Assembly: GCA_030065735.1 (NCBI GenBank)
Contig: JASJDD010000003.1
Span: forward strand, 1 to 64,000
Direction of reading: 5' to 3'
DNA from: Crocosphaera sp.
GTDB taxonomy: Bacteria; Cyanobacteriota; Cyanobacteriia; Cyanobacteriales; Microcystaceae
Length of the DNA: 64,000 nucleotides
Shown here piece by piece: positions 4,743-26,000 of this stretch; position 1 is the first letter of the stretch, and every line of letters begins with the position of its first letter. The notes below the pieces were generated by a model, which saw only the letters and a program-made list of their open reading frames with translations, searched no databases and had not been told where the DNA came from. The translations under genes were made by a program, and so were the position numbers.

Positions 4743-7688
4743 ATGGTTTCCACCGACACAAGCGATCGCCCTTTGATTTATCGTGGCTTAACGTCTGAGC
4801 AGGTTCAGTTAAGTCGTCATCATTATGGTAGCAATATTTTAACCCCTCCCCAACAAAACCCTTGGTGGTTGCTTTATTTAGATAAGTTTAGTGACCCGAT
4901 CATCCGTATTTTAATTATTGCTGCGATTATTGCTTTAGTTATTGGCATCATTGAAGAAGAATACGCCGAAGCTTTGGGCATTTTAATGGCTATTTTTTTA
5001 GCCACTACCCTTGCTTTTTTTAATGAGTATCGGGCCAATAAAGCGTTTGATTTATTGAATAATGTTTATGATCAAACCCCTGTTAAGGTGATTCGTGACC
5101 ATAAATTTACTCAAATTTCTCGTCAAGATTTAGTAGTAGGGGATTTGGTTTATATTGAACAAGGGGATGAGGTTCCGGCTGACGGAGAATTGTTAGAAAC
5201 TGTGAGTTTATTGGTGGATCAAGCTAAAATTACGGGGGAATCTAAAGCGGTTAAAAAGCTTCCCAAATCCCCTGTGCAATCTAATGATTATTCTCAGAAA
5301 ACCTATCCTTCTTTTCAAGTTTATCGTAGTACGATTGTGGCTCAAGGTCATGGGATTTTTCGCGTAACAGCAGTAGGCGATCGCAGTGAAATTGGACAAC
5401 TCGCTCAAGTGGTTATTTCTCTTGATAATGGTCAATTAACTCCTTTAAATTTTCAGTTAGAAAGGTTAAGTCAATTAATCGGTATTATTGGTTTATTGAT
5501 GGCGGTATTGACTTTTTTAGGTCTTTTATTCCAAGGATTTTTAAGTGATAAAATTATTCTTAGTTTTCCTCAAACTTATTGTTTAGGTTTAATTCTCATT
5601 AGTAGTTTGATTGCTTTAATTCCTGTTTGGTTTCCGATTATTGAAGAAGGATTAAAGTCTCTTAATTTAGGTTTCGATTCTTTTCCATTCTTTGGTCATA
5701 ATTTTCTTCATTCATGGGGGATTAGCTTAGGAAGTGGATTATTCATTTTTTTAGGGGGTATTTCTTATCTTTATTTCCAGGGATGGATAGATGATTTTAA
5801 TGATATTTTATTATCTCCATCGGTGGGAATTTTGATCTTAAATTATTTTATGGTTGCTGTTACAATTATCGTGGTTGCTGTCCCTGAAGGGTTAGCCATG
5901 AGTGTCACCTTATCCCTTGCTTATAGTATGGGAAAAATGGCAGCTATGAATAATTTAGTTAGACGAATGCACGCTTGTGAAACCATTGGCTCTGCTACGG
6001 TCATTTGTTCTGATAAAACAGGCACTTTGACTCAAAATAAAATGCAGGTCGAAATTGCTCATTTTCCTTGTTTAAATTGTTCAGATAACGACCAAAAAGA
6101 AGTTTATCAAAATTTAATTTATGAAGGGATTTCTGTTAATAGTACCGCAAACTTAGAACGAACATCTAAAGAGATTTGTTCTCCGATTGGTAATGTTACA
6201 GAAACCGCTTTATTATTATGGTTAGACCGTCAAAATGTAGATTATCTTATTTATCGCCACCATTTTCAAATATTGGATCAATTGCCTTTTTCGACTGAAA
6301 CAAAATATATGGCTACCGCAGGTAAATCCAGTGTTATTTCAGGCAATATTCTCTATTTAAAAGGCGCACCAGAAATTATTTTATCCCACTGTTCTCAACA
6401 ATTAACACCTGAAGGAATCAGAGATTTAGATAATCAAGAGCAATGGATAAAAACCTTCCATAAATATCAAGAAAGAGGAATGAGAGTGTTAGGAATGGCT
6501 TATAATTATTTAGGAATTCAGGAAAAAGAAGAGACAATTAATCCCTTAGATAACCAATTAATTTGGTTAGGATGTTTTGCTATTACTGATCCGTTGCGTC
6601 CAGATGTAAAAGAAGCCATTAAAAGTTGTTTTAATTCAGGCATTGAGATAAAAATTGTTACAGGAGACAGTCAAAAAACAGCCGAAGAAATTGCCAAAAA
6701 AATTAACTTATACCCCTCAAATAATGAAAACAATACTACTTACTATCATCTCACAGGTCAAGAATTTAATCAGCTTAATGATCCCGAAGCAAAAGAAGCG
6801 ATAAAAACCTTAAAAGTCCTATCAAGAGCAACCCCATTAGATAAACTAAGATTAGTTAAACTATTACAAGAAAATGGTGAAGTTGTTGCCGTGACAGGAG
6901 ATGGAACCAATGACGCTGCTGCTTTAAAACAGGCCCAAGTCGGTTTATCAATGGGAAGTGGAACAGCCATTGCAAAAGAAGCCAGTGATATCATTTTATT
7001 AGATGATTCTTTTCATAGTATTGTTACGGCTGTTATGTGGGGACGATCATTATATGAGAATATCCAACGCTTTTTAATTTTTCAATTAACCATCAACATT
7101 GTGGCTTTAGGAATCGCTTTTTTTGGGTTATTTATCGGCATTTCTTTACCTTTAACTGTGACACAAATGTTATGGATCAATTTAATTATGGATACCTTTG
7201 CAGCTTTAGCGTTAGCTACAGAACCCCCTCATAAAACGGTGATGAATAAACCGCCTCGTCATCCTCAAGATTTTATTATTTCTCCTAAAATGTTAAAAAT
7301 TATTATAGGGACAGGCTTACTTTTTCTACTATTTTTAATGGTATTTTTAGCTTATTTAGAGATGGATGGAACAGTGAATAATTACGAACTTTCTATCTTT
7401 TTTGCTATTTTTGTTTTCTTGCAATTTTGGAACTTATTTAATACTCGTTCCTTTGGTTTACAACAATGGGTTTGGCAAGGGTTAGGAAAAAATAAAGCAT
7501 TTTTAGCCATTGCTACCGTCATTTTCTTAGGACAAATTTGTATTGTTCAATGGGGAGGTAAAATATTTAGAACCGTTCCCCTTTCTTGGAAAGATTGGTT
7601 ATGGATTATTTTAGGAACGTCCCTAGTATTATGGATAGGAGAATTATGGCGATTCTTCCTAAGAAAAAGAACAGACAAACCACTTTAA
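4743..7688 (+). CDS. P-type Ca2+-transporting ATPase, PMCA-like
   Basis: A 981-residue P2-type ATPase that pumps a cation, most likely Ca2+, out of the cytosol. Visible motifs are the actuator loop KITGES, the M4 motif VAVPEGLAMS, the phosphorylation motif CSDKTGTLTQNKM, the nucleotide-binding KGAPE, and the hinge TGDGTNDAAALKQA. The N-terminal region (NPWWLLYLDKFSDPI) resembles plasma-membrane Ca2+ ATPases rather than SERCA types. Hydrophobic segments flank the actuator domain, with a C-terminal cluster at about 770-970. It is somewhat longer than usual (about 900-950) because of extra hydrophobic sequence between M3 and M4. Ion specificity is inferred from the family. It ends at a hairpin shared with the convergent Nif11 gene. 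Confidence 0.92.
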   Translation: MVSTDTSDRPLIYRGLTSEQVQLSRHHYGSNILTPPQQNPWWLLYLDKFSDPIIRILIIAAIIALVIGIIEEEYAEALGILMAIFLATTLAFFNEYRANKAFDLLNNVYDQTPVKVIRDHKFTQISRQDLVVGDLVYIEQGDEVPADGELLETVSLLVDQAKITGESKAVKKLPKSPVQSNDYSQKTYPSFQVYRSTIVAQGHGIFRVTAVGDRSEIGQLAQVVISLDNGQLTPLNFQLERLSQLIGIIGLLMAVLTFLGLLFQGFLSDKIILSFPQTYCLGLILISSLIALIPVWFPIIEEGLKSLNLGFDSFPFFGHNFLHSWGISLGSGLFIFLGGISYLYFQGWIDDFNDILLSPSVGILILNYFMVAVTIIVVAVPEGLAMSVTLSLAYSMGKMAAMNNLVRRMHACETIGSATVICSDKTGTLTQNKMQVEIAHFPCLNCSDNDQKEVYQNLIYEGISVNSTANLERTSKEICSPIGNVTETALLLWLDRQNVDYLIYRHHFQILDQLPFSTETKYMATAGKSSVISGNILYLKGAPEIILSHCSQQLTPEGIRDLDNQEQWIKTFHKYQERGMRVLGMAYNYLGIQEKEETINPLDNQLIWLGCFAITDPLRPDVKEAIKSCFNSGIEIKIVTGDSQKTAEEIAKKINLYPSNNENNTTYYHLTGQEFNQLNDPEAKEAIKTLKVLSRATPLDKLRLVKLLQENGEVVAVTGDGTNDAAALKQAQVGLSMGSGTAIAKEASDIILLDDSFHSIVTAVMWGRSLYENIQRFLIFQLTINIVALGIAFFGLFIGISLPLTVTQMLWINLIMDTFAALALATEPPHKTVMNKPPRHPQDFIISPKMLKIIIGTGLLFLLFLMVFLAYLEMDGTVNNYELSIFFAIFVFLQFWNLFNTRSFGLQQWVWQGLGKNKAFLAIATVIFLGQICIVQWGGKIFRTVPLSWKDWLWIILGTSLVLWIGELWRFFLRKRTDKPL

Positions 7689-7721
7689 AATTAAGAAAAA
7701 ATAATGGTTTTTGCCTGTTCT
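7668..7721. terminator. Bidirectional hairpin terminator between convergent genes
   Basis: Arms AGAACAGACAAACCA (7668-7682) and TGGTTTTTGCCTGTTCT (7705-7721) form an imperfect stem of about 15 bp. Read on the minus strand the stem is followed by TTTTCTT, fitting termination of the Nif11 gene; on the plus strand it overlaps the ATPase stop. The loop is about 22 bases, longer than ideal. Confidence 0.5.
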
Positions 7722-7747
7722 GGGTTAACTGTTTCCAAGAGAATTAA

Positions 7748-8041
7748 TTATGAATTAGGATTAGGATCGCCACTATAGGGTTGAACCCCAATAGAAGGAG
7801 GAACATTATCATGATCAGGGCTAAAAGCTTCAGCGATCGCTTCTGCTAATTTACCAAAAAAACCAGGTTTCCGTTTTAATTCATCTAAAGCTTCATCAAC
7901 GTGTTCAGAGTCAAATTCAAATCCCTCTTCTTTAGCTAATGAAGTTAATTCATCTTGATTTTTGACGTTTTGTAATTTATCTTTGAGGTCTTGATTTTTA
8001 GCAGCCTCACCTAAAAATTGAATAACTTTTTCTTTGGCCAT
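7748..8041 (-). CDS. Nif11-family small protein
   Basis: A 97-residue protein. Residues 1-60 match the Nif11 pattern of a helical domain: VIQFLGEAAKNQDLKDKL, then DELTSLAKEEGFEF, then HVDEALDEL. Nif11 domains serve as leader regions of ribosomal peptide precursors in some cyanobacteria and as stand-alone proteins of unknown role in nitrogen fixers. The tail from about residue 75 is rich in Pro, Asp, Asn and Ser and shows neither a clear GG/GA cleavage site nor a Cys/Ser/Thr-rich core. No lanthionine synthetase or transporter gene lies nearby, so a stand-alone role is more likely than a precursor peptide. Confidence 0.8.
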   Translation of the reverse strand: MAKEKVIQFLGEAAKNQDLKDKLQNVKNQDELTSLAKEEGFEFDSEHVDEALDELKRKPGFFGKLAEAIAEAFSPDHDNVPPSIGVQPYSGDPNPNS

Positions 8042-8398: not shown

Positions 8399-9763
8399 AT
8401 GGGAGTCAAAACAATGGACTCAACCACAAAACCCTCTCTATTAGACAAAATTCTTAACCAATTTCAGGCTTGGGCAATAGAGAACCCTAAACATCCTATT
8501 AGCTCAACCCTCTTACCAATAATTGGTTTGCTAGAAGGAATTTTTGCTCACTTGTTGTTTACTTACCCCGTTTACCTAGATATGAAACGGCGGAAGTTTG
8601 GGTCAACCTTTTGTTGTACAGGAGAGGTGGTTTTAGCAGACTTTAAAACCATCGAAACCAATCTTACCACGCCTCAAGCCCGTAGTTGGTATCTGGGAAT
8701 GAGTCCCCTATCTGCTCGTCATTGCCCACAGGGTGATGTGGGAGGGCGCAATGTGTTTTTGATTTCTCTGTCCGATACAGCGGCAGGAGGAGAAGATCAT
8801 GATGCTTTTCGTCAGTGTGTTGAAGATTACTTTTTCACCGATGAAATGAAAGCCCGTCAACAAGATCCAATAGGGCAACAGTTATTAGAAACCTTGGGAA
8901 ATGATTATAGGGAGTTAATGGGTGAAAATCGCTTAGAAGACTTTTTCACCAACGATCAACGGGGTTTAATGGGGTTTTTAATCAGATATCTCCATTATGT
9001 TATCTTTGCCATTAATCCTGAAGATGAGGCTGCCATTGCCACCCTGACCAAGTTTCACTACACCAGACGAGGAACCTTACATTATTTTGCTGCCAGTCAC
9101 ATTTTAGAATGGTTTAATCTCTTGGGATGGCGTGAAATACCAGGAATGATCGACGAAGTAGCAACAATTTACGAACAGTCCCCTGTCTTGGCAAATTTTC
9201 AAGAAAATAATCCCAAGTATAACAATATGACAAGACGGGAACTGGCAAAATTAATGGTGGCGTTGATGAGTATTGCAGCGTTGCAAGGCCCTCTTCATCT
9301 GGGACGAACCGCGATGGGACATCAAAGTCTTCCCCGTTACCAAGGTCATCAAACCAGTGAAATTGAGGTTACCACCTATTGGGATAAGCTTGATCTCGAC
9401 GATACTAGCAGTATTAAACTATTTTTACTCGAATGTGGTCGTTTATTCACACCTGTTAGTGGTTCTCATCGAGTGGCAACAGAACCATTTACAGTAGAAG
9501 TAGCAGGTAAAACGCGAACCTTTCCCCCAGGAACTACTATTTTGATCCCCTTGATCTTAGGAATGCTGAGTGAGGAGTTTTGGGGGCCAACTACCTACGA
9601 CTTTCAACCCCAACGGGAGAATCTTTGTCCTTATCATATGGGGTTTCATTCCGTAGGCGATCGCCATGCTGGCCGAATTTGTCCTGGAAGAGACTTAGCT
9701 TTAGAAATGTTAACCGATGTCATCAGTGTTGTGGGAAAAGTGCGTCGTTCTCAACTGGGATAG
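8399..9763 (+). CDS. Cytochrome P450-superfamily protein paired with a lipoxygenase
   Basis: A 454-residue protein whose C-terminal third is P450-like. It has LECGRLFTPVSG (a K'-like helix region), PPGTTILIPL, and a Cys-ligand loop GDRHAGRICPGRDLALE near residues 425-443. The loop is longer than the classical FxxGxRxCxG and resembles the GD..xGxxCPG form of CYP152 fatty-acid peroxygenases; CYP74 enzymes, which act on lipid hydroperoxides, also have unusual loops. The next gene on the strand is a lipoxygenase, so a role in converting fatty-acid hydroperoxides to oxylipins is likely by context. An ATG at 8414 with GGGAG upstream is an alternative start. The I-helix acid/alcohol pair typical of monooxygenases is not obvious. 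Confidence 0.72.
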   Translation: MGVKTMDSTTKPSLLDKILNQFQAWAIENPKHPISSTLLPIIGLLEGIFAHLLFTYPVYLDMKRRKFGSTFCCTGEVVLADFKTIETNLTTPQARSWYLGMSPLSARHCPQGDVGGRNVFLISLSDTAAGGEDHDAFRQCVEDYFFTDEMKARQQDPIGQQLLETLGNDYRELMGENRLEDFFTNDQRGLMGFLIRYLHYVIFAINPEDEAAIATLTKFHYTRRGTLHYFAASHILEWFNLLGWREIPGMIDEVATIYEQSPVLANFQENNPKYNNMTRRELAKLMVALMSIAALQGPLHLGRTAMGHQSLPRYQGHQTSEIEVTTYWDKLDLDDTSSIKLFLLECGRLFTPVSGSHRVATEPFTVEVAGKTRTFPPGTTILIPLILGMLSEEFWGPTTYDFQPQRENLCPYHMGFHSVGDRHAGRICPGRDLALEMLTDVISVVGKVRRSQLG

Positions 9764-9837
9764 TTTTCTGATCTAATTAAAAACGATTACAGCAATTTTC
9801 AAGTGCGTGAAACATCCAAATGAAATCTGCTAAGTAG

Positions 9838-9962
9838 TATAGCTATTTTCAGATCAATAGACTAACCAAGAAAATAAACATTCCCCCCACACTTCCCACA
9901 CCTCCCACACTCCCCACACTCAACTAACTAAAATCTTGATACACCCAATTGAAAACCGCTAT
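9838..9962 (+). repeat. MITE-like repeat family B, full copy 1
   Basis: A 125-bp element starting TATAGCTATTTTCAGATC and ending CAATTGAAAACCGCTAT, with a core of repeated CCCACACTTCCCACACCT units. It ends one base before the lipoxygenase start codon, so the leader of that gene is repeat-derived. A second full copy is at 22727-22852. Confidence 0.72.
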
Positions 9963-9963
9963 C

Positions 9964-11874
9964 ATGAACCCCTCTCTACCGCAAAACGACCCAAACCCAC
10001 AACAAAGATTGGACTCTCTGGAAAAAGAGCGAAAAATATACCAATGGGGTTATTATCCTAACCAAGATGGTATCCCAATGATTGGGAAGTTGCCCCTACC
10101 CCAAGAACTTCCTAAAGAACCTCAATGGTTTCTCGATGTCATCAAAGTTATTATTATCATTATCTCTAACCGTGCTATAGAAGATTTTGCTTCCGGTGGT
10201 TTAGGTCTTAACTTACTGGTCTATGGGGTGATGACTTGGATAGTCAGATTTATTGATTGGCTGAGTCAGTTCTTAGAAAAAAGACGCAAAAATCGCTTAT
10301 TTTGGTGGTTCATTAATAGTTTAGTTAAGTTAATTGGAAAGATTTTACAACGTCGTCAAGTTTCTAATTATCAAAGCAGTATCGAAGATAGAACCGTTGT
10401 CACTAAGCCAATCATTCCAAAGGATTTAGAATCTTATAATAATTTGTTTGAAATTATCCATCTTCCCTGTATTAGTTATCACTTTCAGCAAGATCGTCTA
10501 TTTGCAGCCCAACGGGTGGCCGGACCAAACCCCTTGGTACTCGAACGAGTGAGGCCAGAACTGCCTGCAAAATTTCCCCTGAGTGATGAAGCTTATCAGT
10601 CCGTTATGGGATCAGACGATTCTCTCCAACAGGCGATCGCAGAAAAAAGGCTATATATGGCTGACTATGAAATATTGGACACTATCAAAGCCGGTCATTT
10701 TCCCCCCGCTTATCGCAAGTATATTTATGCACCTATCGCTTTATTTGCCATTTCTTCTAGAACTCACGCCACTGGTTCGTTGGTTCCTGTGGCCATTCAA
10801 TGTGGACAAACTCCAGGAGACAATTATCCCATTTTTACCCGTCCCCCTACAGGAACACCCCGTGATCAACAGTGGTCTTGGTTAATGGCTAAAGCGATTG
10901 TCCAAATTGCTGATGGTAACTATCATGAACTTATTTCCCACTTAGGAAGAACCCATTTATGGATAGAACCCTTTGTCATCGCTACCCAACGACAACTAGC
11001 TTCTAATCATCCTTTGGGTATTTTACTCCGTCCCCATTTTGAAGGAACGTTATTGATTAATACGGCTGCAAGATTAAGTTTAATTGAGGAGGAAGGAACG
11101 GTTGATGCTGTTTTGGGGGGAAGTATTCAGGAGTCTATCCGCATAGCTGCAACGGGGGTTAAAGGGTATCCTTTTACGTTTAATGACTCAATGTTACCGA
11201 AGTTTTTAACCTTACGGGGTGTAGATGATTTTAATTCCCTATCAGATTATCCTTATCGAGATGATGGACTATTGATCTGGGATAGCATTCATCAATGGGT
11301 GGATAATTATTTATCTGTGTACTATCACTCTGATGACGATGTACAGAAGGATGAGGAACTTCAAGGATGGATAAAAGCCTTAATTTCCAGTGATGGGGGA
11401 CGCATGACGGGGATTGGAGAAAAGACGGCATCCGGTGGCTTCGATATTAAGACAAAAGCTTACTTAATTGATGCAGTCACCCTAATTATTTTTACTTGTA
11501 GCGCGCAACACGCGGCGGTTAATTTTCCTCAAGCGACGGATATGTCCTATGTACCCAATATGCCTTTGGCTGGATATACGGCAGCCCCTACCACCCCTCA
11601 AGCAACTAAGGAGGACTATTTTAACTTATTACCCCCTATCCCCCAAGCTGAGTCACAAATGAATACCACTTATGCTTTGGGATCGGTGTACTATACAAGA
11701 CTGGGTGATTATGGCGAGGGTTATTTTAAAGATCAACGGGTAGAACAACCGTTAAAGGCTTTTCAAAATCGCCTTTTAGATATTGAAACCATAATTAATG
11801 ATAGAAATGAGGTCAGAGGAACGTTTTATAATGTTTTATCTCCGAGTCGCATTCCCCAAAGTATTAACATCTAA
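9964..11874 (+). CDS. Lipoxygenase (non-haem iron fatty-acid dioxygenase)
   Basis: A protein of about 636 residues that inserts O2 into polyunsaturated fatty acids to give hydroperoxides. The iron-ligand helix reads YHELISHLGRTHLWIEPF (the H-x4-H pair), followed by the expected HPLGILLRPH; the second helix has CSAQHAAVNFPQ, and the chain ends in isoleucine (PQSINI), the fifth ligand of lipoxygenases. The N-terminal 150 residues carry two hydrophobic stretches (VIKVIIIIIS; LNLLVYGVMTWIVRF) instead of an obvious PLAT domain, so membrane association is possible. The ATG at 9964 is chosen over a TTG at 9949 that lies inside the preceding repeat. No good Shine-Dalgarno sequence precedes it, perhaps because the repeat replaced the native leader. 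Confidence 0.9.
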   Translation: MNPSLPQNDPNPQQRLDSLEKERKIYQWGYYPNQDGIPMIGKLPLPQELPKEPQWFLDVIKVIIIIISNRAIEDFASGGLGLNLLVYGVMTWIVRFIDWLSQFLEKRRKNRLFWWFINSLVKLIGKILQRRQVSNYQSSIEDRTVVTKPIIPKDLESYNNLFEIIHLPCISYHFQQDRLFAAQRVAGPNPLVLERVRPELPAKFPLSDEAYQSVMGSDDSLQQAIAEKRLYMADYEILDTIKAGHFPPAYRKYIYAPIALFAISSRTHATGSLVPVAIQCGQTPGDNYPIFTRPPTGTPRDQQWSWLMAKAIVQIADGNYHELISHLGRTHLWIEPFVIATQRQLASNHPLGILLRPHFEGTLLINTAARLSLIEEEGTVDAVLGGSIQESIRIAATGVKGYPFTFNDSMLPKFLTLRGVDDFNSLSDYPYRDDGLLIWDSIHQWVDNYLSVYYHSDDDVQKDEELQGWIKALISSDGGRMTGIGEKTASGGFDIKTKAYLIDAVTLIIFTCSAQHAAVNFPQATDMSYVPNMPLAGYTAAPTTPQATKEDYFNLLPPIPQAESQMNTTYALGSVYYTRLGDYGEGYFKDQRVEQPLKAFQNRLLDIETIINDRNEVRGTFYNVLSPSRIPQSINI

Positions 11875-11894: not shown

Positions 11895-14687
11895 TTAATT
11901 AATTTCTATGCCACCAGAAATAACAAGGGCATAATCTTGAGGGCCTTCAGAAACGTCAGATCCAATGACAGAAATTTTCCATTCTCCAACTTCTGGGGAC
12001 TCTACTACAATACCTTCAACGTTATTTGTAGTATCAAGGTTGCCTGTTTTCTCAAAATCATTGCCTAAGTAATATTTTCCACTAGGACTAAATAACATTA
12101 GATTGAGATTATTATATAATCCTTCTCCTGGATAATCACTGTAAACCAAAGTAACTTTCAATATGACACTGGTATCAATAATGTTAATTTGATATTTACG
12201 AAATTCATTAGTATTTAGTCCTTTAGTTTCATCAATAAACTGGACTTTTGTAGGAGAAGGAGGATTAAGAACTTGGGACAGATTAACTCTACCCCACCCT
12301 TGCTCATTATCTGCCCATTGTTTAGAAAGAGGGTGTTTAAAGCGATAGTTAATATATTGCGCTGAGTGAATTAAAATTCCTTTAACTAAAGCTGCACTAG
12401 GATTAGCTATATTTTCTTTTTCTCGCAAGTATTGTCGCACTAATGCTGCACATCCAGCTACTAGGGGAGTAGCCATCGAAGTTCCGTGATCATACATATA
12501 GTGTTTAGGAGCATTGGGATAAATTCTTCCATCAAAATCATATTCTGCTATTTGAGAAGATCGAGTTGACAAAATAAAAGTACCTGGAGCCATAAGATCA
12601 GGTTTACGACGACCATCTTGGCAAGGACCTCGACTACTGATAGCAGCAATATCATCAATAGAATCTGCCATTTTGTCTGATTTAATCGGATCATAGGGAA
12701 ATTTATCTGGCCACCGTTGACCATAGGTATCAGGAAATTGAGCATCCCGTTGATTTTCTGAAGCACCCACCGTCAAACAATTTTTAGCCGTGCCAGGGGA
12801 ACCTACACTTCCAAGATCAATGCCGGTTCCTGACGAACTTTGTTGTCCATCATTTCCTGCAGCAACCACAACCAAAAAATCTTTATGCTTCCACACAAAT
12901 TGATCTAATTGAAAAGCACGTAGGTCATATTGCCCAAAATTGCTACGTCCCCAAGAATTAGAGTGAATTCGCGCCCCTTGATCATAAGCTTCTTGGAAGA
13001 GGTCTTTTAAATCTGTTGGAATACCATATAAACCAGATTTAGGGGGCATTTCTCCGTAAGTATTAATATGCCATAAGATTCCTTGAAGATTCCATTCGGG
13101 CATCTGTTCAAGAGCCTGAAAAATTAACTTGGCTTTAGTTGCCATTCCTGCTGGTTTAATAGAAATTCCTGATTCTTCTGCAAAGTTTCCATCACCCAAT
13201 GCACTACCTGCTACGTGAGTACCATGTCCCGAATGTTGGTCAATGGGGGGATCTTGATGACCAAAATTTGAGATATACTCCTCCTGTAGTAGGGTAGTCG
13301 GAACAATGGTATAACTTTTCAGAAACTGAACCCTTTCTTTAAAGTCGGGATGTACTGTTTTTATATCTCCTGTATCTAGTCCTGTATCGGCGATCGCAAT
13401 CTTTTCCCCTTGCCCTGTTAAATCTAAATCATTAAGTTGAGGATGAGGATTAGAAGGAATCACGTTTTTAGCGACAATATAGCGTGCTTGTTCGTTAAAT
13501 AGTCGGGGAATTGTTTCCTCTTCTAAGGACTGTAATCCTGTTAATTGAGCAATATTTTGAAAGGATTCTAAGGCGTTGGCATCTTTACTAACATCAATCA
13601 CTAAGGTTGTTTTCCCTGGACAGTTAGCAATACGAATTCCTTTATTTTCTAATTCTTGCGCTCCTTGATTACGATCATCTTCTGTGAAAAAGTCAGCAAT
13701 TAAAATTCCTGGTATGGTATTTTTCTTGCGACGATTGTTTGATTGGGATCTCGCTGCTTTAATTCTCGCTTCGGCGATCGCTTTTTTGAGGTCTTCTTCT
13801 GTGGCGTTGGCAGGGGTTTGATAAAAGTTTTGTAAGTTTTGAGTATTAACCCGAATTCTGGGAATGTAAGGTTTTATGTCTTCCACCCCTTCCACATTAT
13901 CCTTGATTTGTTGAACTATGTCTTGGTTAGGAACGGAGACGACAATTTCTCTACGACCAATGGGACGTAAAATAGTAGTACCTAGATCCTCGATTTGACG
14001 TTTCCAGTCATCAAGAATAGGCATATTGAAGTAAATAACTTGATCTCTCTGATCTGGCATAGTTTCCTCTGAGTTTGGGACTTGGTTTTTGGACGATGGA
14101 TTCAAGGGTTCAACAGGAAAGCTTTCTTTGATTTGGTTAATTGTTTCTTCTGTAGTTGCAATGATAGCAAAACATGAGTAAATTTTAATGACTTCCACTT
14201 CGGGTGGCAATTTCTCAAGATCATTTTCAGAGCAAAATACTCGATATCTTTTATACAATCTTGCTGAAATTTCTTTGATCGCAACATCTAGTAAACTTGA
14301 CTCGTAGCGAGGTTCCTCTTTAATTTTTTGTAAAATGTTTAATTCGTATTCTCCTCCATGTTCATATATCCACATTAAAGCCTTTTCAAAATCATATTCA
14401 TCTGAGGGAGCAAACAACGTGACTATTCTTTGAATTTGTTCAATGTAAAATCTAATTTTCCGACTCAAAATTTTGGAATCATCTAATTCAATAGACTTTT
14501 CACGAACAACTTTATTGAGGGTTTTCAAAGATTCTTTTTCACACTTTTCTATTTCAATTTTATCTTTTTTATTGAGATGCTCTGGTTCATCAATAACTTT
14601 TTTATAAATTCTTTCTAATGTTTCACGTTGCTCGTTAGCTATTATGTCGAGTTCTTCAGGGGGAGAAGCTAGAGTTCCTTTGCTCAT
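11895..14687 (-). CDS. Leaderless S8 (subtilisin-like) serine protease with long N-terminal region
   Basis: A protein of about 930 residues (941 from an upstream ATG at 14720; numbering below uses that form). The triad is complete: D445 in IAIADTG, H499 in HSGHGTHVAG, S748 in HGTSMATPLVAG, with the oxyanion Asn in VAAGND. The first 420 residues contain three stretches with the size and pattern of I9 propeptide-type domains (about 160-205, 227-290 and 335-415); this is inference by eye. The C-terminal 120 residues look like a beta-sandwich P/pre-peptidase-type domain. There is no signal peptide, so it likely acts in the cytosol. It lies downstream of a histidine kinase and a receiver-only regulator on the same strand, suggesting signal-controlled proteolysis. 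Its target is unknown. Confidence 0.9.
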   Translation of the reverse strand: MSKGTLASPPEELDIIANEQRETLERIYKKVIDEPEHLNKKDKIEIEKCEKESLKTLNKVVREKSIELDDSKILSRKIRFYIEQIQRIVTLFAPSDEYDFEKALMWIYEHGGEYELNILQKIKEEPRYESSLLDVAIKEISARLYKRYRVFCSENDLEKLPPEVEVIKIYSCFAIIATTEETINQIKESFPVEPLNPSSKNQVPNSEETMPDQRDQVIYFNMPILDDWKRQIEDLGTTILRPIGRREIVVSVPNQDIVQQIKDNVEGVEDIKPYIPRIRVNTQNLQNFYQTPANATEEDLKKAIAEARIKAARSQSNNRRKKNTIPGILIADFFTEDDRNQGAQELENKGIRIANCPGKTTLVIDVSKDANALESFQNIAQLTGLQSLEEETIPRLFNEQARYIVAKNVIPSNPHPQLNDLDLTGQGEKIAIADTGLDTGDIKTVHPDFKERVQFLKSYTIVPTTLLQEEYISNFGHQDPPIDQHSGHGTHVAGSALGDGNFAEESGISIKPAGMATKAKLIFQALEQMPEWNLQGILWHINTYGEMPPKSGLYGIPTDLKDLFQEAYDQGARIHSNSWGRSNFGQYDLRAFQLDQFVWKHKDFLVVVAAGNDGQQSSSGTGIDLGSVGSPGTAKNCLTVGASENQRDAQFPDTYGQRWPDKFPYDPIKSDKMADSIDDIAAISSRGPCQDGRRKPDLMAPGTFILSTRSSQIAEYDFDGRIYPNAPKHYMYDHGTSMATPLVAGCAALVRQYLREKENIANPSAALVKGILIHSAQYINYRFKHPLSKQWADNEQGWGRVNLSQVLNPPSPTKVQFIDETKGLNTNEFRKYQINIIDTSVILKVTLVYSDYPGEGLYNNLNLMLFSPSGKYYLGNDFEKTGNLDTTNNVEGIVVESPEVGEWKISVIGSDVSEGPQDYALVISGGIEIN

Positions 14688-14771
14688 AATTGTATCAATC
14701 ACCCAATAATTTAAACACAATCTAAAATAAACCGTAATTCAACAATATTTTATCTTTAATTTTATCTGAAC

Positions 14772-15185
14772 CTAAACCTCACTTAACATTTCTTTTACTT
14801 CCTTAACAAGTTGATAAGGAACAGTATCTATCTTTTGGACAAACTTACTTTTAGGATTGTTTTGAATTTCTTGTTCTACTTCTTGATCATCGATTTTAGC
14901 AAGATTACTGAAAATAATAATTGGTAAACTCTTATTATTTTTTCTAATTTTATTATAAAAAACAATGCCTGTTCTTAATCCATCATTAGTACCCTTTTCT
15001 TTAGATAGTTTTCCACTTCGCATCATAATATCAAGAATTAAGAATTCTATTTCTTCTTGACGTTCCTCAAAGTATTCTATAGCTTCATCAATATTTTCAG
15101 CTAATTCAACTTCATAGTTGGATAACTCTAATTCCTCAATATAGACTTCCATTCTTCCTGGTTCATCATCTACAATTAGAATCAT
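14772..15185 (-). CDS. Single-domain response regulator (receiver only)
   Basis: A 137-residue CheY-like receiver. It has the acidic pair in LIVDDEP, the phospho-acceptor Asp in FLILDIMM, the switch Ser in IIFSN and a conserved Lys in FVQKID. An insertion after the phospho-Asp (about 15 residues, GKLSKEKGTNDG) makes the beta3-alpha3 loop unusually long. No output domain is present, so it must act by binding a partner. It starts within the last codons of the kinase gene (4-base overlap), and the protease gene follows, so it probably relays the kinase signal to the protease. That link is inference from gene order. Confidence 0.88.
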   Translation of the reverse strand: MILIVDDEPGRMEVYIEELELSNYEVELAENIDEAIEYFEERQEEIEFLILDIMMRSGKLSKEKGTNDGLRTGIVFYNKIRKNNKSLPIIIFSNLAKIDDQEVEQEIQNNPKSKFVQKIDTVPYQLVKEVKEMLSEV

Positions 15186-17533
15186 TTTATATCTCCTTTA
15201 TTATTAATTGATTCCTGTTTAGGTGGTTGTTTTGGTACGGTAAGATGAAACTCTGTTGGATTACGATTATACTTTAATATTAAATCCCCTCCTAATTGTT
15301 TCATAATGTTTTTTGAAATCGACAAGCCAAGTCCTGATCCTAATACATCCATTGCTTGTGCTTGACGACTACGAAACCCCTGCTCAAAGATTTTATCACG
15401 ATCTTCTTCATTTATTCCGATTCCCCAATCTTGGAATTTAATAATGAAGTCTTCTTGATTTTCTTCCACTTCCAAAAAAACTCTAAATTGATTCGGATCT
15501 TTTTTTAGAGACTTAGGCCGATCTTTAGAGTATTTAATTGCATTTATAAGAAGATTAGAAATAACCTGGTTTAACTTTGTTCTATCTGTAAAAATTTGAA
15601 TTCTATCAACATCTTTTGAATCATATATTATATTTTTAGGAGAAAGTTTAAAATTCCTAAGAGTAAGACTTAATTGATTAATGGTTTTGACAATAATATC
15701 TTTGAAAACATTGGTTTGTTCAAATATTAATTTACGAGAATTAGGTATCCCTAGTAAATATTCTAGTTCTCCGACTTGATTCGCTAAACTTTCTGAATCA
15801 GCTAATATATCATTTAATTTGATGACAATATAATCTTTATCTTTTTTTTCAATTAGGTTAATTTGATCATTAATTTTACGACGTAATAGGAAATCAACAT
15901 TACTTCTTATCCCAAAAATAGGAGACTTGAATTCGTGCATACTTTTATCAATCATTCCCGTTTTTAGTCTTTCCAAAAAATTAATAGAATAGTCTATCAA
16001 ACTTTTGATAATTTGGATGTCTTCCTCATAAATATATTTGCGATATCTTTTTTCATAACCAACTTCAATTGTTCCTATTACTAGATTAGTTGATTGTTCA
16101 ATCATAGGAAGAAAAGCTCTAATTAAATAACGATGTTTATATTTATGATAAATTCGACCATCAAGTCGGTCATCCCATGCATCAATTACTTCTATTTTCC
16201 CATTTTTAATAATATCTGATTGAATATCATTCTCTTGTAATGAATGAGAAACTTCTTGTTTAAATTCTTCCTGAGTTTTTGGTGACATAAAATTCCCAGA
16301 GACATATTCACTTTTAATGCTTGTTTGTTCGGAATCAATCAAAGAAATATTAACCCATGTAAACTTTAAAACATCAGTAATAGTATTAATTATAATCTTA
16401 ATAATCTTCTCATAGTTTTCTGCATTAAAAATTTTTTTTTCAATTTTTCTGAGTTCCTTAATTTTACGTTCAGATTCTATTCTCTCTAAGCGAATAGCAG
16501 CAAAACGAGCTAATAACCAAAGACGTTCTTTATCATTTTCTGAAAAAGCATTTGTCTTATCACTTTCTAAATTAATGACTCCAAAACATTTAGACCCTAA
16601 TTCAATTGTCTGACCAATTCTAACAGGAATGTCATTAATAACAATAGGAAGATCTAATTCTGAAAGGGTATCTGGGTTATGTTGAATATAAATATTTCGT
16701 AGCAAATCAGAAGCATTTTTAACATCATTAACAAGAATGGGCTTTTCATCTTTGATTGCTTTACCAGTAATGCCAATTTTTTGATTTTTGAGAGAAGATT
16801 GGCGATTTTCTTGTTCTAAATTAGACTGTTGATTAGCTGTTTTTAGCTGACCCGTTTTATGGTCTAGTTTACTAATCCAAACATATTTAAAATCGACTAA
16901 TTCTGAAGAGCCTTCTTCTAAAAGTTGCCAGACATCAGTAACTGTATACTTTTGAGTCATTGTTAGCATAATATGTATTAATTTTTGTAATTTTTGTCTA
17001 TCTTCATATTCTGATTTATAGATAGCAGATAAAGTACAAGTTCCCAGAATTTTAAATACTTCTCTTGTTGCTTTAGTTAAAGTAAATTGTTTATTTTCTT
17101 CTTTAATTAATAAATCAAGTAAGCCAACCAATCTTTCCTCAGTTCTTAAAGCAATTGTTGCAATAGAATTACATTTTTTTTTAATTTCTTCCTTGGATAT
17201 TAATATAAGTTTAATATCTTTAAGATCTTTAATATAAAACACTTTATTTTTGACTGTAGACTTATTAAAGTTAAATTTACGCTGAATTGTCGGGTGATTT
17301 AAGGGAAGTTCAATTCTTTTATATTCGTCATCTACTTCTTGAGAAGCATAAGCAACTTGAAATTTTTGCTCTTGTTCGTTTAATATCCATAAAATACAAC
17401 TATCAGCTTTTAATAATTCACAAATCTTGTCGGGTAATTGCAACAGAAACTCATGAGGAGATAGATAAGCTAAATCATCTGATAGCTGACTTAACTTTGC
17501 GAGTAAAGATGGATTATTAGTAGTCTTGTTCAT
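15182..17533 (-). CDS. Soluble multi-GAF histidine kinase
   Basis: A 783-residue kinase without membrane segments. Three GAF-like sensor regions lie at about 20-170, 190-350 and 365-525. The dimerisation helix carries the phospho-His in KSMHEFKSPIFGI, near residue 535. The ATPase domain has NLLINAIKYSK (N box), DWGIGIN (G1) and GSGLGLSISK (G2). It senses an unknown cytosolic signal and should phosphorylate the receiver encoded immediately downstream (4-base overlap). No phytochrome-type chromophore Cys was identified. The three-gene set with the S8 protease looks like one cassette. Confidence 0.9.
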   Translation of the reverse strand: MNKTTNNPSLLAKLSQLSDDLAYLSPHEFLLQLPDKICELLKADSCILWILNEQEQKFQVAYASQEVDDEYKRIELPLNHPTIQRKFNFNKSTVKNKVFYIKDLKDIKLILISKEEIKKKCNSIATIALRTEERLVGLLDLLIKEENKQFTLTKATREVFKILGTCTLSAIYKSEYEDRQKLQKLIHIMLTMTQKYTVTDVWQLLEEGSSELVDFKYVWISKLDHKTGQLKTANQQSNLEQENRQSSLKNQKIGITGKAIKDEKPILVNDVKNASDLLRNIYIQHNPDTLSELDLPIVINDIPVRIGQTIELGSKCFGVINLESDKTNAFSENDKERLWLLARFAAIRLERIESERKIKELRKIEKKIFNAENYEKIIKIIINTITDVLKFTWVNISLIDSEQTSIKSEYVSGNFMSPKTQEEFKQEVSHSLQENDIQSDIIKNGKIEVIDAWDDRLDGRIYHKYKHRYLIRAFLPMIEQSTNLVIGTIEVGYEKRYRKYIYEEDIQIIKSLIDYSINFLERLKTGMIDKSMHEFKSPIFGIRSNVDFLLRRKINDQINLIEKKDKDYIVIKLNDILADSESLANQVGELEYLLGIPNSRKLIFEQTNVFKDIIVKTINQLSLTLRNFKLSPKNIIYDSKDVDRIQIFTDRTKLNQVISNLLINAIKYSKDRPKSLKKDPNQFRVFLEVEENQEDFIIKFQDWGIGINEEDRDKIFEQGFRSRQAQAMDVLGSGLGLSISKNIMKQLGGDLILKYNRNPTEFHLTVPKQPPKQESINNKGDIK

Positions 17534-18085: not shown

Positions 18086-20653
18086 CTAACTATTTTTAGC
18101 TTCTAAGTTAGCAATACGACTTTGTAATTCTTGATTTTCTTGTTTCAGTTTTTCAAGTTCATCCCGTAAAGATTGAATTCCTTTATCTGATCCTAATTTT
18201 TTCTGAACTTTTTTGATAGCTTCCTCTGCTTTTCTTTTAACTCGTCCATCTGGGGTTCTATCAGCTAAGCTTTGTAAAATAGTCACTGCTTTGGGGGTTT
18301 CCATTTGTCCTAAAGCTGTGCTAACTGCGACTTGAGTTAAGAAGAAACTTTCTTGAGAAATAGACTCTAGAATGTCAAGAATTTCTTCTAATTTATTGGG
18401 TGTTTGTCCTGTAGAAATAGTCCCTAATGCGCGAATGGCTGTTAATCTTAAGGGTTGAGGAATTCCTAATTTTGTATAATTAACAATAACATCCACAGCA
18501 TCGCCGTTCGTTTTGAGTTTACTTAACCCATTAATTGCCCCTGATCTTACCACTTCATTCCAACCTGAACGAGTTTCTAAGACGTTTTTTAATAATTCAA
18601 TGACTTCTGGGGTTTTTTCTTTTAAATTACCAGATAATATTGACCCTAAACTGGTAGCGATCGCTGCTTCACAATAGTAGCTTTTATCTTCAGTTTCTAA
18701 GCAAGTTTTTAAGGTATCATAACAGTCATTATTGTTGATTTTTCCTAAGCTTTCAATGACAGCGCGGCGAACTTTAGCATGATTATCTAATAACCCTTTT
18801 CTTAAAGCTTCTCCTGCTTGATCTAAGGTGATTTTTCCTAATTGTTTAGCTGCTTCTAATCTGACTCCCCAAAAGGGATCATTTGTCAAGGATTCTTCTA
18901 AACTTTTAACTGCTTCTACGTTGCCTTTTTTTCCAATAGCAATAGCTGCATAAATACGAGAAACAGGATCAGGATCATGTTTTAACTGGGCTTTTAATTC
19001 GGCAATGGGATAGTCTAATTCTACGGTTTTCAAGAAATAGTTATTAACATCAAAGCTAATAAAATCGGGTTTTGTTTCTAGGGGAAAGTAAAAGGTTTGT
19101 TGTTTCTCATGAATACGCATAGTAAAGGTTTTCATGGCTGCATTTTCATACCCAAAACCAATGGGTATTTTTAGATCAAAGTTATCTTTATTATTACCCT
19201 CTTCTTCTTTGACTTGGGTTTGCGTAATGGTTAATTTAGCCAGATTATTATCATTATCCCAACTGTAATTAATCTTGTAGTCAGGATGTCCACCCCGAAA
19301 GACATATTGATCAAAAAGGAATAGTAAGTTATAACCTGTAGCGGTTTCTATTGCTCTTAATAAGTCAATGGTTTCTACAGTTTTATGAGCATTTTCATTA
19401 ACAAACTTATGAATTGCTTTATCAAATAATTCTTCTCCTAAAATACCTCGAATCATGTGATAAACACAAGCACCTTTTTCGTATAAATGGCGATCATATA
19501 ATTCAATTGCTTCGCGATAAATATTAGTAACAATGGGGCGACGATAACGGGAAGAATCTTCGTCTAAATAACTTCTGGCTTCATTTAATAGGTAATAAGC
19601 AGCATCATCTTTTCCGTATTCCTTTTCTGTCCATAAAACTTCAGAATAAGAAGCCATTCCTTCCTTAATCCAAGCGTGAGACCAGTGTTTTATAACCACC
19701 AAATCACCAAACCATTGATGGGCTAATTCATGGGCGACTAAACTTTCTGTAAAGGGTTTATCTTTAACCGCTTTTTCATCCAGTAAACAGCGATCAGTTA
19801 GTAAAGTAGTTGAAGTATTTTCCATCCCACCAAAGATGAAGTCACTAACACAAACTTGGGCATATTTAGGAAAAGGATAATTATAGCCAAACTTTGAAGA
19901 AAAATAGTCAATCATTTGGGGCGTTTTCCCCATACTGATCTTTCCTTGTTCTTCTTTGCCTTTTTCTACATAATAAGTAACAGGAATACCTTTCCATTCA
20001 TCTTTGATTTCACTAAATTCTCCTACCGCTAACGTCATTAAATAGGTAGGATGAACCTGTTTTTGCAACCAGTGATAAATCGTTTCATCTCCAACGGTTT
20101 CTTGATTAATTAATTCACCATTAGAAATAGCCATAAACTTGTTAGGAACTTTGACTTTAATTTCTGAAGTTGCTAACTGTCCCGGATAGTCAAAACAAGG
20201 GAACCAAAAGCGCGAGTCTTCATCTTCTCCTTGTGTCCAAACTTGAGTCGGTTTCTCAGGATAATGCTCATCTGGGGCAATAAAATAAAGTCCTCTTTGC
20301 GGTTTTTCTACGCCATAGTTTATAATGATTTTAATGGGATCTTCTTGAGTCGGTTTTAGCAGATTAATAGTTAATTTTCCTTGCTCATAATCAAAAGGTT
20401 GACTAACTTCATTAATTAGGACAGAATCGATGTTTAAATCAACAGCATCGAGAATTAATTGATTAATTCCAGAACGTACAGGGGTTAAGGTAATGTTACA
20501 GGTTCCCGTGAAGCTTTGATGGGGAATATCGAGGGTTAAATCGAGAAAAATATGATTAACTTGTCCGTAGCGATCGGGGTTATAATGGGGTTTAGCTCCT
20601 GGTAATTCAAATTTACGGTTATTGTCTTCGCTATCAAAGTTTTTTAGATTCAT
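18086..20653 (-). CDS. M1-family zinc aminopeptidase with C-terminal HEAT-like repeats
   Basis: An 855-residue enzyme that removes N-terminal residues from peptides. It shows the exopeptidase motif GGMEN (275-279) and the zinc site HELAH (308-312) with the third ligand E331, exactly 18 residues after the HELAH histidine. The N-terminal 200 residues are the beta-saddle domain. Beyond about residue 560 the protein has alpha-helical HEAT/Armadillo-like repeats (DPVSRIYAAIAIGKKG, DPFWGVRLEAAKQLG, DNHAKVRRAVIESLG and more) and ends in a coiled coil of about 30 residues (LRDELEKLKQENQEL). No signal peptide, so it is cytosolic. Its place between two conflict-type loci may be chance. Confidence 0.92.
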   Translation of the reverse strand: MNLKNFDSEDNNRKFELPGAKPHYNPDRYGQVNHIFLDLTLDIPHQSFTGTCNITLTPVRSGINQLILDAVDLNIDSVLINEVSQPFDYEQGKLTINLLKPTQEDPIKIIINYGVEKPQRGLYFIAPDEHYPEKPTQVWTQGEDEDSRFWFPCFDYPGQLATSEIKVKVPNKFMAISNGELINQETVGDETIYHWLQKQVHPTYLMTLAVGEFSEIKDEWKGIPVTYYVEKGKEEQGKISMGKTPQMIDYFSSKFGYNYPFPKYAQVCVSDFIFGGMENTSTTLLTDRCLLDEKAVKDKPFTESLVAHELAHQWFGDLVVIKHWSHAWIKEGMASYSEVLWTEKEYGKDDAAYYLLNEARSYLDEDSSRYRRPIVTNIYREAIELYDRHLYEKGACVYHMIRGILGEELFDKAIHKFVNENAHKTVETIDLLRAIETATGYNLLFLFDQYVFRGGHPDYKINYSWDNDNNLAKLTITQTQVKEEEGNNKDNFDLKIPIGFGYENAAMKTFTMRIHEKQQTFYFPLETKPDFISFDVNNYFLKTVELDYPIAELKAQLKHDPDPVSRIYAAIAIGKKGNVEAVKSLEESLTNDPFWGVRLEAAKQLGKITLDQAGEALRKGLLDNHAKVRRAVIESLGKINNNDCYDTLKTCLETEDKSYYCEAAIATSLGSILSGNLKEKTPEVIELLKNVLETRSGWNEVVRSGAINGLSKLKTNGDAVDVIVNYTKLGIPQPLRLTAIRALGTISTGQTPNKLEEILDILESISQESFFLTQVAVSTALGQMETPKAVTILQSLADRTPDGRVKRKAEEAIKKVQKKLGSDKGIQSLRDELEKLKQENQELQSRIANLEAKNS

Positions 20654-23021: not shown

Positions 23022-26000
23022 ATGAGTAATCATGGTCAATGGGAAGCTTTAATAGTTGGGATCGATCGCTATCCTTCTCAGACTACTCTATTTTATCTTA
23101 CTTCAGGGGAGAAAGATGGAGAAGATTTGTCACGACGGTTAGATCGTTATGGGTACGAAACTTTTCGCATTCAAAGATTACCTGAAAATCCCAATCAAAA
23201 AGGAGAAGAAAAACTAACAGGGACGGGTTTAGTTTGTTCAGAAGACTTGAAATATAAAATTACGAATCTTTTTAATCCTCCTGCTTCCGATCCTATTGCT
23301 GAGACTGCTTTATTCTTTTTTTCGGGTCATGGATGGCGTAAAGTTGTTGATGGAAAAGAAGATGTTTTTTTAGTAACCAGTGATGCTTATCCTGATGGCA
23401 ATATTTATGGTGTTTCTATAAGTTGGTTAGGAGAACAAATACAACAGAGTAAGGTTAAAAAAGTAATTGTTTGGTTGGACTGTTGTTATAGTGGGGAGTT
23501 GCTTAAATATATTCCTGAAGATAAAGATTATTGTTTAATTACAGCGACCCGATCGCATGAATTTGCTAAGGAGATTACTCATCAACAAGGGTTATTAACT
23601 GAAGTTTTATTACAAGGGTTAAACCCTGAAAATGATGCTGATGGATGGGTAGATAGTCATAAGTTGGGGACGCATATTGAGAAGGCAATGAGAACTACAT
23701 CTCAACGTCCCTTAATTGCTAATTCTCCGCGCAATATTCTCCTAACCAAGCGTAATACTTTAATGAACTTTAGGGATGAATGTCCTTATCGTTCTTTGTC
23801 TTATTTTCAGGAAATTCCAGAAGATGCAACGGTATTTTATGGAAGGAAACAGATAACGGAGAGATTATTAGAAAGAATAGAAAAAGACAGAGTATTAGCT
23901 ATTTTAGGGGCTTCTGGTAGCGGTAAATCCTCCTTATTACGGGCAGGTTTGTTATATGAATTGAAATTAGGACAAAAAATTTTAGGCAGTCATTTATGGA
24001 CATATTTAACTCCATTTTCTCCCACAGAAAACCCCTTACAACAATTACACAACGTAGGTTGGGTTGAGGACACGAAACCCAACAGTATGAAGTCAACCCA
24101 CCCTACCCTCCCAGGAGGGGAAGTAGGGATAAATGAAGCAACCAAAATAATCATGATCATCGATCAGTTTGAAGAATGCTTTACCATGTGCGATGAAGTA
24201 ACTAGAACAGACTTTTTAAGAGAACTGGTGAGGTTATTACAAGAACACAAAAATCTCTATTTAATTATTGGGATGCGTTCAGACTTTCGGGGACGCTTAC
24301 GAGAATATCCTCAATTTGTGCAACAGATCAATAAACCCTATATTAATGTTGAACATTTAAACAGTGAAGAGATAGAAGCAGCCATCATTAAACCAGCAGA
24401 TTTGGTGGGAGTACAGATAGGAAGTGGATTAAAACAACAGTTAATTAACGATGTTGAAGATTATCCAGGAAGTTTACCCCTACTGCAATATACCTTGACT
24501 CAACTGTGGTTAGAAACAAGGAAACAAGGCGAAAAATTTTTAACCCTGAAAACTTATCAAAACTTAGGTGGAATTGAAGGAACCTTAGAAAAACGCGCCG
24601 ATGCTGTCTTTGAAAGTTTGAATAAAAAAGAACAGGCGATCGCTCAACGATTGTTTTTAGAATTAACTCAAATAGGAGAAACCTTTGATACTCGCAGAAG
24701 AATTGCTTTACAAGAATTAGTCAATCAATATCATTCTTGGGATGACTTAGATAAGGTAACAGAAAAGTTAGCAGATAAAGATAATAGACTTATTCTTCGG
24801 GAAGGCAAAAGGCAACCCACCCTACCCTCCCAGGAGGAAAAGGCAAAAGGCAAAAGTAAATTTTTATTATTAATGGTTAAGCAAATAACTGTTTATGGGT
24901 TAACAGGTTTTTTCCTGCAACAACCAACAAATAAACATGATGACTCAGATATTATTATTGATGTGGTTCATGAAGCATTAATCAGAAACTGGGGACGGTT
25001 AAGACAATGGCAGGATAAATATCGAAGTGCTATGGTAATCCAGAGAGACATTGAAACGGCGGCCAAAGACTGGGTTAACCAAGGAAAACCCCGTGATCGA
25101 GGGCTGTTGTTACAAGGGACCAAACTAGAGAAAGCAACAGACTACCTCAGTAAATACCGTCAGCTAAAAATGTTGAATGGGATGGCCAAGGACTATGTTG
25201 AGGTTAGTCAGCAACAAGACGAGATGCGTCGTTGGCGACACCGAGGGGTTATGGTTATCATTGCTGTCATGGGTGTGGTATCTGTGTTTTTTGGGATGGA
25301 CTCCAATAAACGGGCCACTGTTGCAACGTTACGAGAACAAGCAGCAACCGTTAAGAACTTATTACCTATTCAACCCTTAGAAGCGTTGTTATTGTCTATT
25401 GCTACCACAGGAGATAATCTAAATGCTTGGCAAGTTCCCAGGATGTTACCCGAAGTGCGATCGAGTTTGTATGCTGCGATCGATCAGGTCAGGGAAAGAA
25501 ACTCTATAGAAGGTCATCAAGATCCTGTCAGCAGTGTCGCTATCAGTTCTGATGGAGAGACCATTGTTTCTGGGAGTTCTGACAAGACGGTCAAGGTATG
25601 GGATAGACAGGGTAATCTTCTCCATACCCTAGAAGATCATCAAAATACTGTCAGGAGTGTCGCTATCAGTTCTGATGGAGAGACTATTGTTTCTGGGAGT
25701 GATGACAAGACGGTCAAGGTATGGGATAGACAGGGTAATCTTCTCCATACCCTACAAGGTCATCAAAATACTGTCAGCAGTGTCGCTATCAGTGAAGAAG
25801 GTAATCAAGATACTGTCCTGAGTGTAGCTATCAGTTCAGACGGAGAGACCATTGTTTCTGGGAGTTCTGACAACAAGGTCAACGTCTGGGATAGACAGGG
25901 TAAACTTCTCCATACCCTACAAGATCATCAATATCCTGTCAGCAGTGTAGCTATCAGTTCTGATGGAGAGACCATTGTTTCTGGGAGTTGGGACAAGACG

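Follow-up and report, generated by a model that had tools for sequence, protein, structure and literature searches.

Does the protease encoded behind a histidine kinase and a lone receiver in this Crocosphaera genome answer to them by phosphorelay, and do the three genes constitute a system of their own? In the stretch analysed here (the window, 64,000 nucleotides of contig JASJDD010000003.1), the list of open reading frames places three genes head to tail on the minus strand: a histidine kinase (HK; 15182..17533, 783 aa, assigned from its reading frame, Pfam and motifs), a stand-alone receiver or response regulator (RR; 14772..15185, 137 aa, assigned from its reading frame, Pfam and alignment) and an effector, a leaderless S8 subtilase (11895..14720, 941 aa when counted from its TTG). 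The HK and RR reading frames overlap by 4 bases, and coordinates, strand and overlap all agree with the first-pass annotation, which had described three same-strand genes. The protease reading frame opens with TTG, but we consider it likelier that translation begins 33 nt downstream of this, at the ATG of residue 12 (position 14687). The gap between RR and protease accordingly measures 51 nt if the TTG is used and 84 nt if the ATG is. A promoter scan of the locus did no better than shuffled sequences (29 vs 28.3). An identical protease (100%) is encoded in a Crocosphaera sp. metagenome-assembled genome.

Two GAF domains (residues 28-165 and 204-349) and a HATPase_c domain carrying GSGLGL were identified in the HK by Pfam, and a third GAF-like segment would, judging from its position, lie at about residues 360-515. 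Pfam returned no HisKA match in the window HK at E<=0.1; H, N and G2 boxes are nevertheless recognisable in its sequence, with the H-box HEFKSP at 533 and the N-box at 660. Among ten kinases from the loci described below, script patterns recovered the H-box and the G2-box in all ten and the N-box in nine, the N-box of the remaining kinase (G648) reading NLLMNSIKY, which is outside the pattern and keeps both Asn. A strict G1 pattern was present in five of the ten, and the D, G and G of this box are invariant in the nine kinases aligned (9/9). The maximum 19-residue mean hydropathy of the window HK is 1.22, which suggests no membrane or signal segment and fits the soluble GAF kinase of the first-pass annotation. 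The customary threshold of 1.6 was exceeded by three of the ten kinases (1.64 in G043, 1.61 and 2.31 in G444), so that the term “soluble” is secure for the window HK and not for every relative. The G444 kinases are shorter and start without the first GAF region, their matches beginning at profile position 165-168; the sensor part of the kinase therefore varies.

The RR matches Response_reg (45 bits, Pfam), and no DNA-binding or output domain was found in it with Pfam. Alignment places the acidic pair at D6/D7, the phospho-Asp at D52, the conserved hydroxyl residue at S93 and the lysine at K118; the Asp pair, phospho-Asp, Ser/Thr and Lys are kept in 11/11 receivers aligned. The loop insertion, which had been singled out as unusual for a receiver-only regulator, is borne out by a loop beyond the phospho-Asp strand that is 13 residues longer than in a CheY-like receiver of known structure, and a G..TG motif inside it is invariant in 11/11 family members aligned. 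PADLOC gave a weak match of the window RR to its SduA model (22.8 bits). One of the related loci (G052) carries two receivers in tandem.

The effector is a Peptidase_S8 protein (155 bits against a Pfam cut-off of 21.8). Its catalytic domain (12291..13415, minus strand) contains the triad D434, H488 and S737 as well as the oxyanion residue N612, numbered from the ATG, and is followed by a C-terminal part of the KP-43/SubHal type (11898..12290, minus strand), placed by its profile match to 1wmd; the two parts together match KP-43/SubHal (PDB 1wmd, 5fax) over profile positions 403-924 with 357 bits. With a maximum 19-residue mean hydropathy of 1.17 and no hydrophobic leader, the protein corresponds to the leaderless S8 protease with a full triad that had been proposed from the sequence. 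The Asp/His/Ser triad is present in all seven complete cassette proteases read (7/7), a count that lies outside the effector of G648, which ends at a contig end before its catalytic domain. About three beta-alpha-beta segments (13481..14249, minus strand) were placed between the N-terminal helical region and the catalytic domain from low-confidence and partial models; they are weakly alike (best E 6e-4, probability 28%). Pfam gave no I9 match for these segments, which are possibly I9-like inhibitory prodomains. The model of the full-length protease reached a mean pLDDT of 43 (four sequences), with low confidence beyond residue 200.

The first-pass annotation had read the three genes as one cassette and had named their adjacency across genomes as the comparison that matters. 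The trio was contiguous, on the same strand and in the order HK-RR-effector in all ten loci read (the window, G002, G003, G010, G361, G052, G043, two in G444, and G648; nine genomes), with gaps of -17 to +57 nt between HK and RR and of -16 to +149 nt between RR and effector, and this contiguous recurrence in the same order is more than chance would give. The cassette of G004 was taken from its 100% identical protease and from an HK and adapter at the same spacing rather than from gene-by-gene reading. Four of the ten loci are close kin, forming one clade with RRs 69-77% identical to that of the window, so that the independent cases number about six. A profile of the HK (E<=1e-60) identified at least 10 of the 388 genomes of the order, at 11 or more loci, and a profile of the N-terminal adapter described below (E<=0.001) found in the same 388 genomes these ten and G053, with at least 12 loci. 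These counts are lower bounds because scoring in each genome was limited to the top candidates (two for the HK, 14 for the adapter and 10 for the RR). In a sample of 386 genomes of the phylum, an RR profile gave at least five matches in four genomes at E<=1e-10, and all five sit in cassettes with E<1e-46; as the weakest of them reaches 2.8e-47, nothing scored between the RR family and the limit applied. The reading of the three genes as one cassette thus held, with adjacency in every locus read and a receiver family that, in the phylum sample, is confined to cassettes.

In the further families of G361, G052 and G444, 2 of 25, 1 of 1 and 1 of 11 genomes gave matches, all of them cassettes already known. 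Searches of plasmids with the RR returned no match, those with the G361 kinase returned partial matches covering at most 27% of the query, and viral contigs yielded nothing with RR or HK alignments. Some relatives of the protease were considered and set aside. Those on plasmids of Azospirillum and Methanohalobium have related catalytic domains, but the annotation shows neither a kinase nor a receiver in the 6 kb around them; a third, from a Persicobacter plasmid, comes without annotation. A Pseudomonadales relative (L010, 37% identity) has no HK, RR or adapter match on its 4.9-kb contig, its genome contains no member of the RR family at E<=1e-10, and 0 of 299 genomes of its phylum matched the RR at E<=1e-13, in a set that holds no positive control. 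Within the samples searched, the cassette is rare, patchy and found in cyanobacteria only.

What the genes behind the kinase and receiver have in common is a helical adapter, which in the window effector comprises residues 1-146 of the ATG form (14250..14687, minus strand) and was delimited from model and profile. A model of residues 1-189 has a mean pLDDT of 83 (three sequences) and is helical up to residue 144. The adapter profile was built only from eight cassettes with subtilase-type effectors, including G648, for which this class was judged from the adapter and a prodomain-like part, the catalytic part lying beyond the contig end. This profile finds the adapter of a cassette with a CHAT protease (G043; 54.7 bits, E 3e-16) and those of two STAND proteins (G052, 32.7 bits; G053, 33.9 bits; E about 1e-9), compared to a best score of 7.4 bits among the 864 shuffled sequences scored (900 made). 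In G043 the adapter is a separate protein, with a CHAT protease gene and then a Pepco gene downstream of it, and in G052 it is fused to an nSTAND1 NTPase (CHAT, Pepco and nSTAND1 all by Pfam). The adapter-nSTAND1 sequence of G053 was left out as a complete cassette since it is a fragment at a contig end, its frame interrupted near that end. The HK tree joins the CHAT cassette to G648 as its sister (support 100/98) and places the STAND cassette together with the window group and G361 (97/97), without resolving the order among these; the RR tree is poorly resolved.

The adapter is thus, on sequence similarity, homologous between cassettes, and the effector behind it differs: a subtilase, a CHAT protease with Pepco, or an nSTAND1 NTPase. 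The simplest reading is that effectors have been exchanged behind a conserved HK-RR pair: as the same adapter follows the same HK and RR with effectors other than subtilases, the pair would be a conserved switch and the effector its exchangeable part. The first-pass annotation had seen no output other than the protease, which stands for the window locus and fails for the wider system, where HK and RR also serve CHAT and STAND effectors through the adapter. Kinship of the adapter with known effector-associated or death-like adaptor domains was looked for in a Pfam scan of seven of the ten adapters, where the best match had an E of 0.006, below the cut-off. Fold comparison returned generic helical matches only (best Z 7.6) and Foldseek none at E<=0.001, and because of this generic character no fold kinship is claimed for the adapter. 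Its docking role is accordingly argued from gene order and from its sharing between cassettes. A resemblance to HPt domains was considered and dropped, the conserved His being absent from the adapter core.

Taken together, the HK, the RR and the adapter-bearing effector are, as far as their sequences tell, a conserved and co-inherited gene set in which the catalytic residues are kept. Phosphorelay control, as proposed in the first-pass annotation, would fit these features. We consider it more probable than not that this set is a modular cassette in which the effector is gated by phosphorelay through protein contact. The cytosolic HK would sense an internal cue via its GAF domains, autophosphorylate and then phosphorylate the lone receiver, a protein that itself lacks an output domain. 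The phosphorylated RR, with its inserted loop beside the phospho-Asp, would then bind the N-terminal helical adapter of the effector. In the protease form this contact may relieve an inhibition exerted by the beta-alpha-beta, prodomain-like segments, and in the CHAT and STAND forms it may trigger assembly. The armed effector would degrade or disable proteins of the cell, as a self-harm or defence response to stress or infection.

The genomic site shows how the cassette behaves within the genus. In the window and in G003 it lies between a gene for an M1 aminopeptidase (18086..20653, minus strand, in the window) and, on the other side, a P-type ATPase gene (plus strand) and a Nif11 gene (minus strand; the two within 4743..8041), all of which are flanking genes outside the system. 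The protein neighbours in the window also include a lipoxygenase. Two other members of the genus, G006 and G008, possess the M1, Nif11, ATPase and PP2C genes with no cassette in between, the G008 site being occupied by an IS605 OrfB-type gene; in G001 there is likewise no cassette between the M1 and Nif11 genes. In G002 the lipoxygenase adjoins M1, and the cassette is located elsewhere in the genome, beside a truB-like gene. Among the eight other members of the genus in the sample, the HK was found in G002, G003 and G004 and not in G001 and G005-G008. Within the genus, gain or loss affects the cassette as a whole.

The genes around the cassettes were scanned with PADLOC, covering 72 of 83 flanking proteins and the best 25 of 53 matching families, as raw counts that stand without a background rate. 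Among the matches listed there was one that we count as a clear defence gene, PbeC (PbeC/DndD, 966 bits) in G002, about 1.6 kb downstream of the protease. Of the families listed, PDC-S03, a candidate, accounted for as many as three of the flank proteins, with a best E of 2e-88; tracing led for two of these to genes that we take, from their type of sequence, to be Uma2-like. Also listed was mad3, with matches in two flank proteins, one of which was followed back to its gene, a RecN-like one. The window further encodes a STAND-WD40 protein that matches a caspase model (E 2e-9) and lies upstream of the HK, about 5.5 kb away. Enrichment in defence genes was not seen among the matches listed for the 72 flank proteins, and the case for a defence-island context is weak.

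The cassette flanks are mostly housekeeping genes, and this lends some weight to a different account, namely an ordinary stress or protein-quality response in which the phosphorelay turns on a housekeeping protease for the turnover of damaged proteins or the recycling of nutrients. Metabolites or light are common inputs of GAF kinases, and subtilases may have degradative roles. On the other hand, the exchange of the subtilase for CHAT with Pepco or for nSTAND1 would be unusual for a housekeeping function, as would an occurrence in 10 of 388 genomes combined with gain and loss as a unit inside one genus. We regard this account as unlikely, if the most serious of the alternatives. A role in conflict or regulated death would instead be favoured by the kinds of effector found (an intracellular subtilase, nSTAND1, and CHAT with Pepco), by the patchy presence and by the gain and loss as a unit, although a role specifically in defence or self-destruction is put forward here as a possibility that we hold with somewhat more doubt than confidence. 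The stress-response or abortive-infection device suggested in the first-pass annotation would likewise agree with these effectors and with the patchy occurrence.

Somewhat less probable than a housekeeping protease is an account without phosphorelay, in which the receiver is an adapter-bound inhibitor or a nucleotide-type switch and the kinase a phosphatase or accessory sensor. It draws on PMC8195603, in which receivers of conflict systems are treated as switches independent of kinases and are proposed to be nucleotide-responsive. In the cassettes, however, a kinase with H, N and G2 motifs adjoins the receiver in each of the ten loci read, and all eleven receivers keep the Asp/Asp/Asp/Ser-Thr/Lys residues. 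That the trio is merely an operon, its RR acting elsewhere and its effector controlled only by co-transcription, would suit a receiver without an output domain, and distant partners are common among lone receivers, but this is quite improbable given that the adapter is kept across effectors, where separate control would need no shared adapter, and that the RR family is confined to cassettes in the phylum sample.

Contact-mediated gating of the effector by phosphorelay therefore remains the reading that we prefer. A broader version of it, in which a dedicated kinase and a lone receiver form a portable trigger that arms any of several lethal effectors (subtilase, CHAT protease or STAND NTPase) by direct contact with the shared adapter and so brings about self-destruction, is offered more tentatively than the defence or self-destruct role as such. 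Two-component systems are textbook gene switches, whereas the triggers generally assumed for effector-swapping conflict systems are nucleotides, NTPases or proteolysis. The arrangement described here suggests that two-component signalling may be joined to an effector-swapping system of the conflict type. If true, a kinase-receiver pair gating exchangeable proteolytic or STAND effectors via a common adapter would join both fields, and an intracellular protease would be switchable by a single phosphorylation event, which is cleanly testable. Such gating would also be a candidate for how cyanobacteria, Crocosphaera among them, bring about regulated cell death. The broader version would further mean that a classical two-component pair triggers bacterial programmed cell death without transcriptional output.

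Among known systems, the modular conflict systems resemble the cassette in that, according to PMC7159879 and PMC8195603, a shared adaptor is combined with varying effectors, including proteases and STAND proteins, in a patchy distribution. In the relevant passages of Kaur et al. 2020 (PMC7159879), receivers occur sporadically among the effectors and no histidine kinase appears among the effectors associated with vWA. The receivers in these accounts act independently of kinases, whereas the cassette has a dedicated HK; no MoxR or vWA gene, as in VMAP-type ternary systems, was present among the window neighbours scanned. Pairs of Response_reg_2 and HEF_HK proteins, described in PMC8011034 as similar to two-component systems and linked to restriction-modification, share with the cassette an HK-like and RR-like gene pair and, from that account, differ in their effectors; the window RR and HK gave no Pfam match to PF19192 or PF19191 at E<=0.1. 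HATPase and REC domains, as in the cassette, also occur in defence systems predicted by DefensePredictor and still unvalidated, according to PMC13092281. The orthocaspase and CHAT-like domains that PMC7517822 places in variable proteins of cyanobacterial diversity-generating retroelements belong to a different context from the CHAT protease of the cassette.

Among the matches listed in the open-licence literature, none describes an HK-RR-adapter cassette whose S8, CHAT or STAND effectors are interchangeable. The helical adapter and the exchange of effectors in relatives are new here, and neither they nor the beta-alpha-beta segments figure in the first-pass annotation. The abstract of Burroughs and Aravind (J Bact, 2020, doi 10.1128/JB.00365-20) is said to name histidine-kinase-based, two-component signalling among newly proposed immune mechanisms that trigger effectors, and for this reason the cassette may be related to a system described in that paper.

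Closer comparisons can be drawn for the protease and for its proposed control. IetAS is a defence system composed of an AAA ATPase and an S8 protease, and it resembles the cassette in its S8 effector and in weak profile matches, the window protease matching the PADLOC models “subtilase” with 68.3 bits and IetS with 45.8 bits. It differs in that the NCBIfam model of IetS gives 42.6 bits against a cut-off of 900, and in that no AAA ATPase gene is adjacent to the window protease. The KP-43/SubHal subtilases are secreted enzymes, whereas the window protease is leaderless and comes with adapter and sensor genes. RssB and CpdR are receiver-type adaptors that deliver substrates to ClpXP, and resemble the proposed cassette in that a receiver would control proteolysis by protein contact; they serve ClpXP, however, while the receiver of the cassette sits with a protease of its own.

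The interval between the M1 aminopeptidase and the Nif11/P-type ATPase genes, in which the window and G003, a genome of the same genus, carry the cassette, is suggested to be insertion-prone, because the cassette-free site of a third genome of the genus, G008, is occupied by an IS605 OrfB-type gene (L075, 3374-4597, plus strand). In the window, two genes (8399-11874, plus strand) separate the cassette from the Nif11/ATPase genes: one for a protein whose P450 match stays below threshold (E 0.05), and an adjoining lipoxygenase gene. Neither is present in this position in G003. In G002, a lipoxygenase is located at the M1 site. A gene of the RRXRR-HNH endonuclease type (3095-4402, minus strand) lies close to the variable site in the window.

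About 5.5 kb upstream of the histidine kinase, the window encodes a protein of 1158 aa (23022-26498, plus strand) that combines nSTAND1 with WD40 repeats and whose N terminus matches a PADLOC caspase model (E 2e-9). This is a second conflict-type gene near the cassette.

The STAND-type cassette of G052 (L028) contains two receivers of the cassette family in tandem (9584-10449, minus strand). Directly upstream of its kinase, a 639-aa protein (12703-14619, minus strand), which has no significant Pfam match and matches ZorA weakly (E 6e-5), is possibly an extra component.

Among the subtilase cassettes, HEAT-like repeats are fused to the protease, or HEAT-repeat genes follow it, at the two G444 loci (L044, 6303-10386, minus strand; L045, 10106-14429, plus strand), and a PbeC-type gene (966 bits; L008, 14452-16518, plus strand) follows the G002 protease at a distance of approximately 1.6 kb, on its downstream side. 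The G361 cassette is preceded, a few kb upstream and beyond a glmS-like gene, by genes that appear to encode phage tail components (L029, 98-4439); their Pfam domains are Beta-lactamase2 in a 1169-aa protein and NlpC/P60 plus JAB in a 254-aa protein.

A related subtilase in a Pseudomonadales MAG (L010, 1002-3335, plus strand) has no adapter, kinase or receiver beside it. On a Methanohalobium plasmid (L048, NC_014254.1), a protein annotated as an S-layer-domain protein contains an S8 domain that is also related, with 36% identity across 59% of the query.
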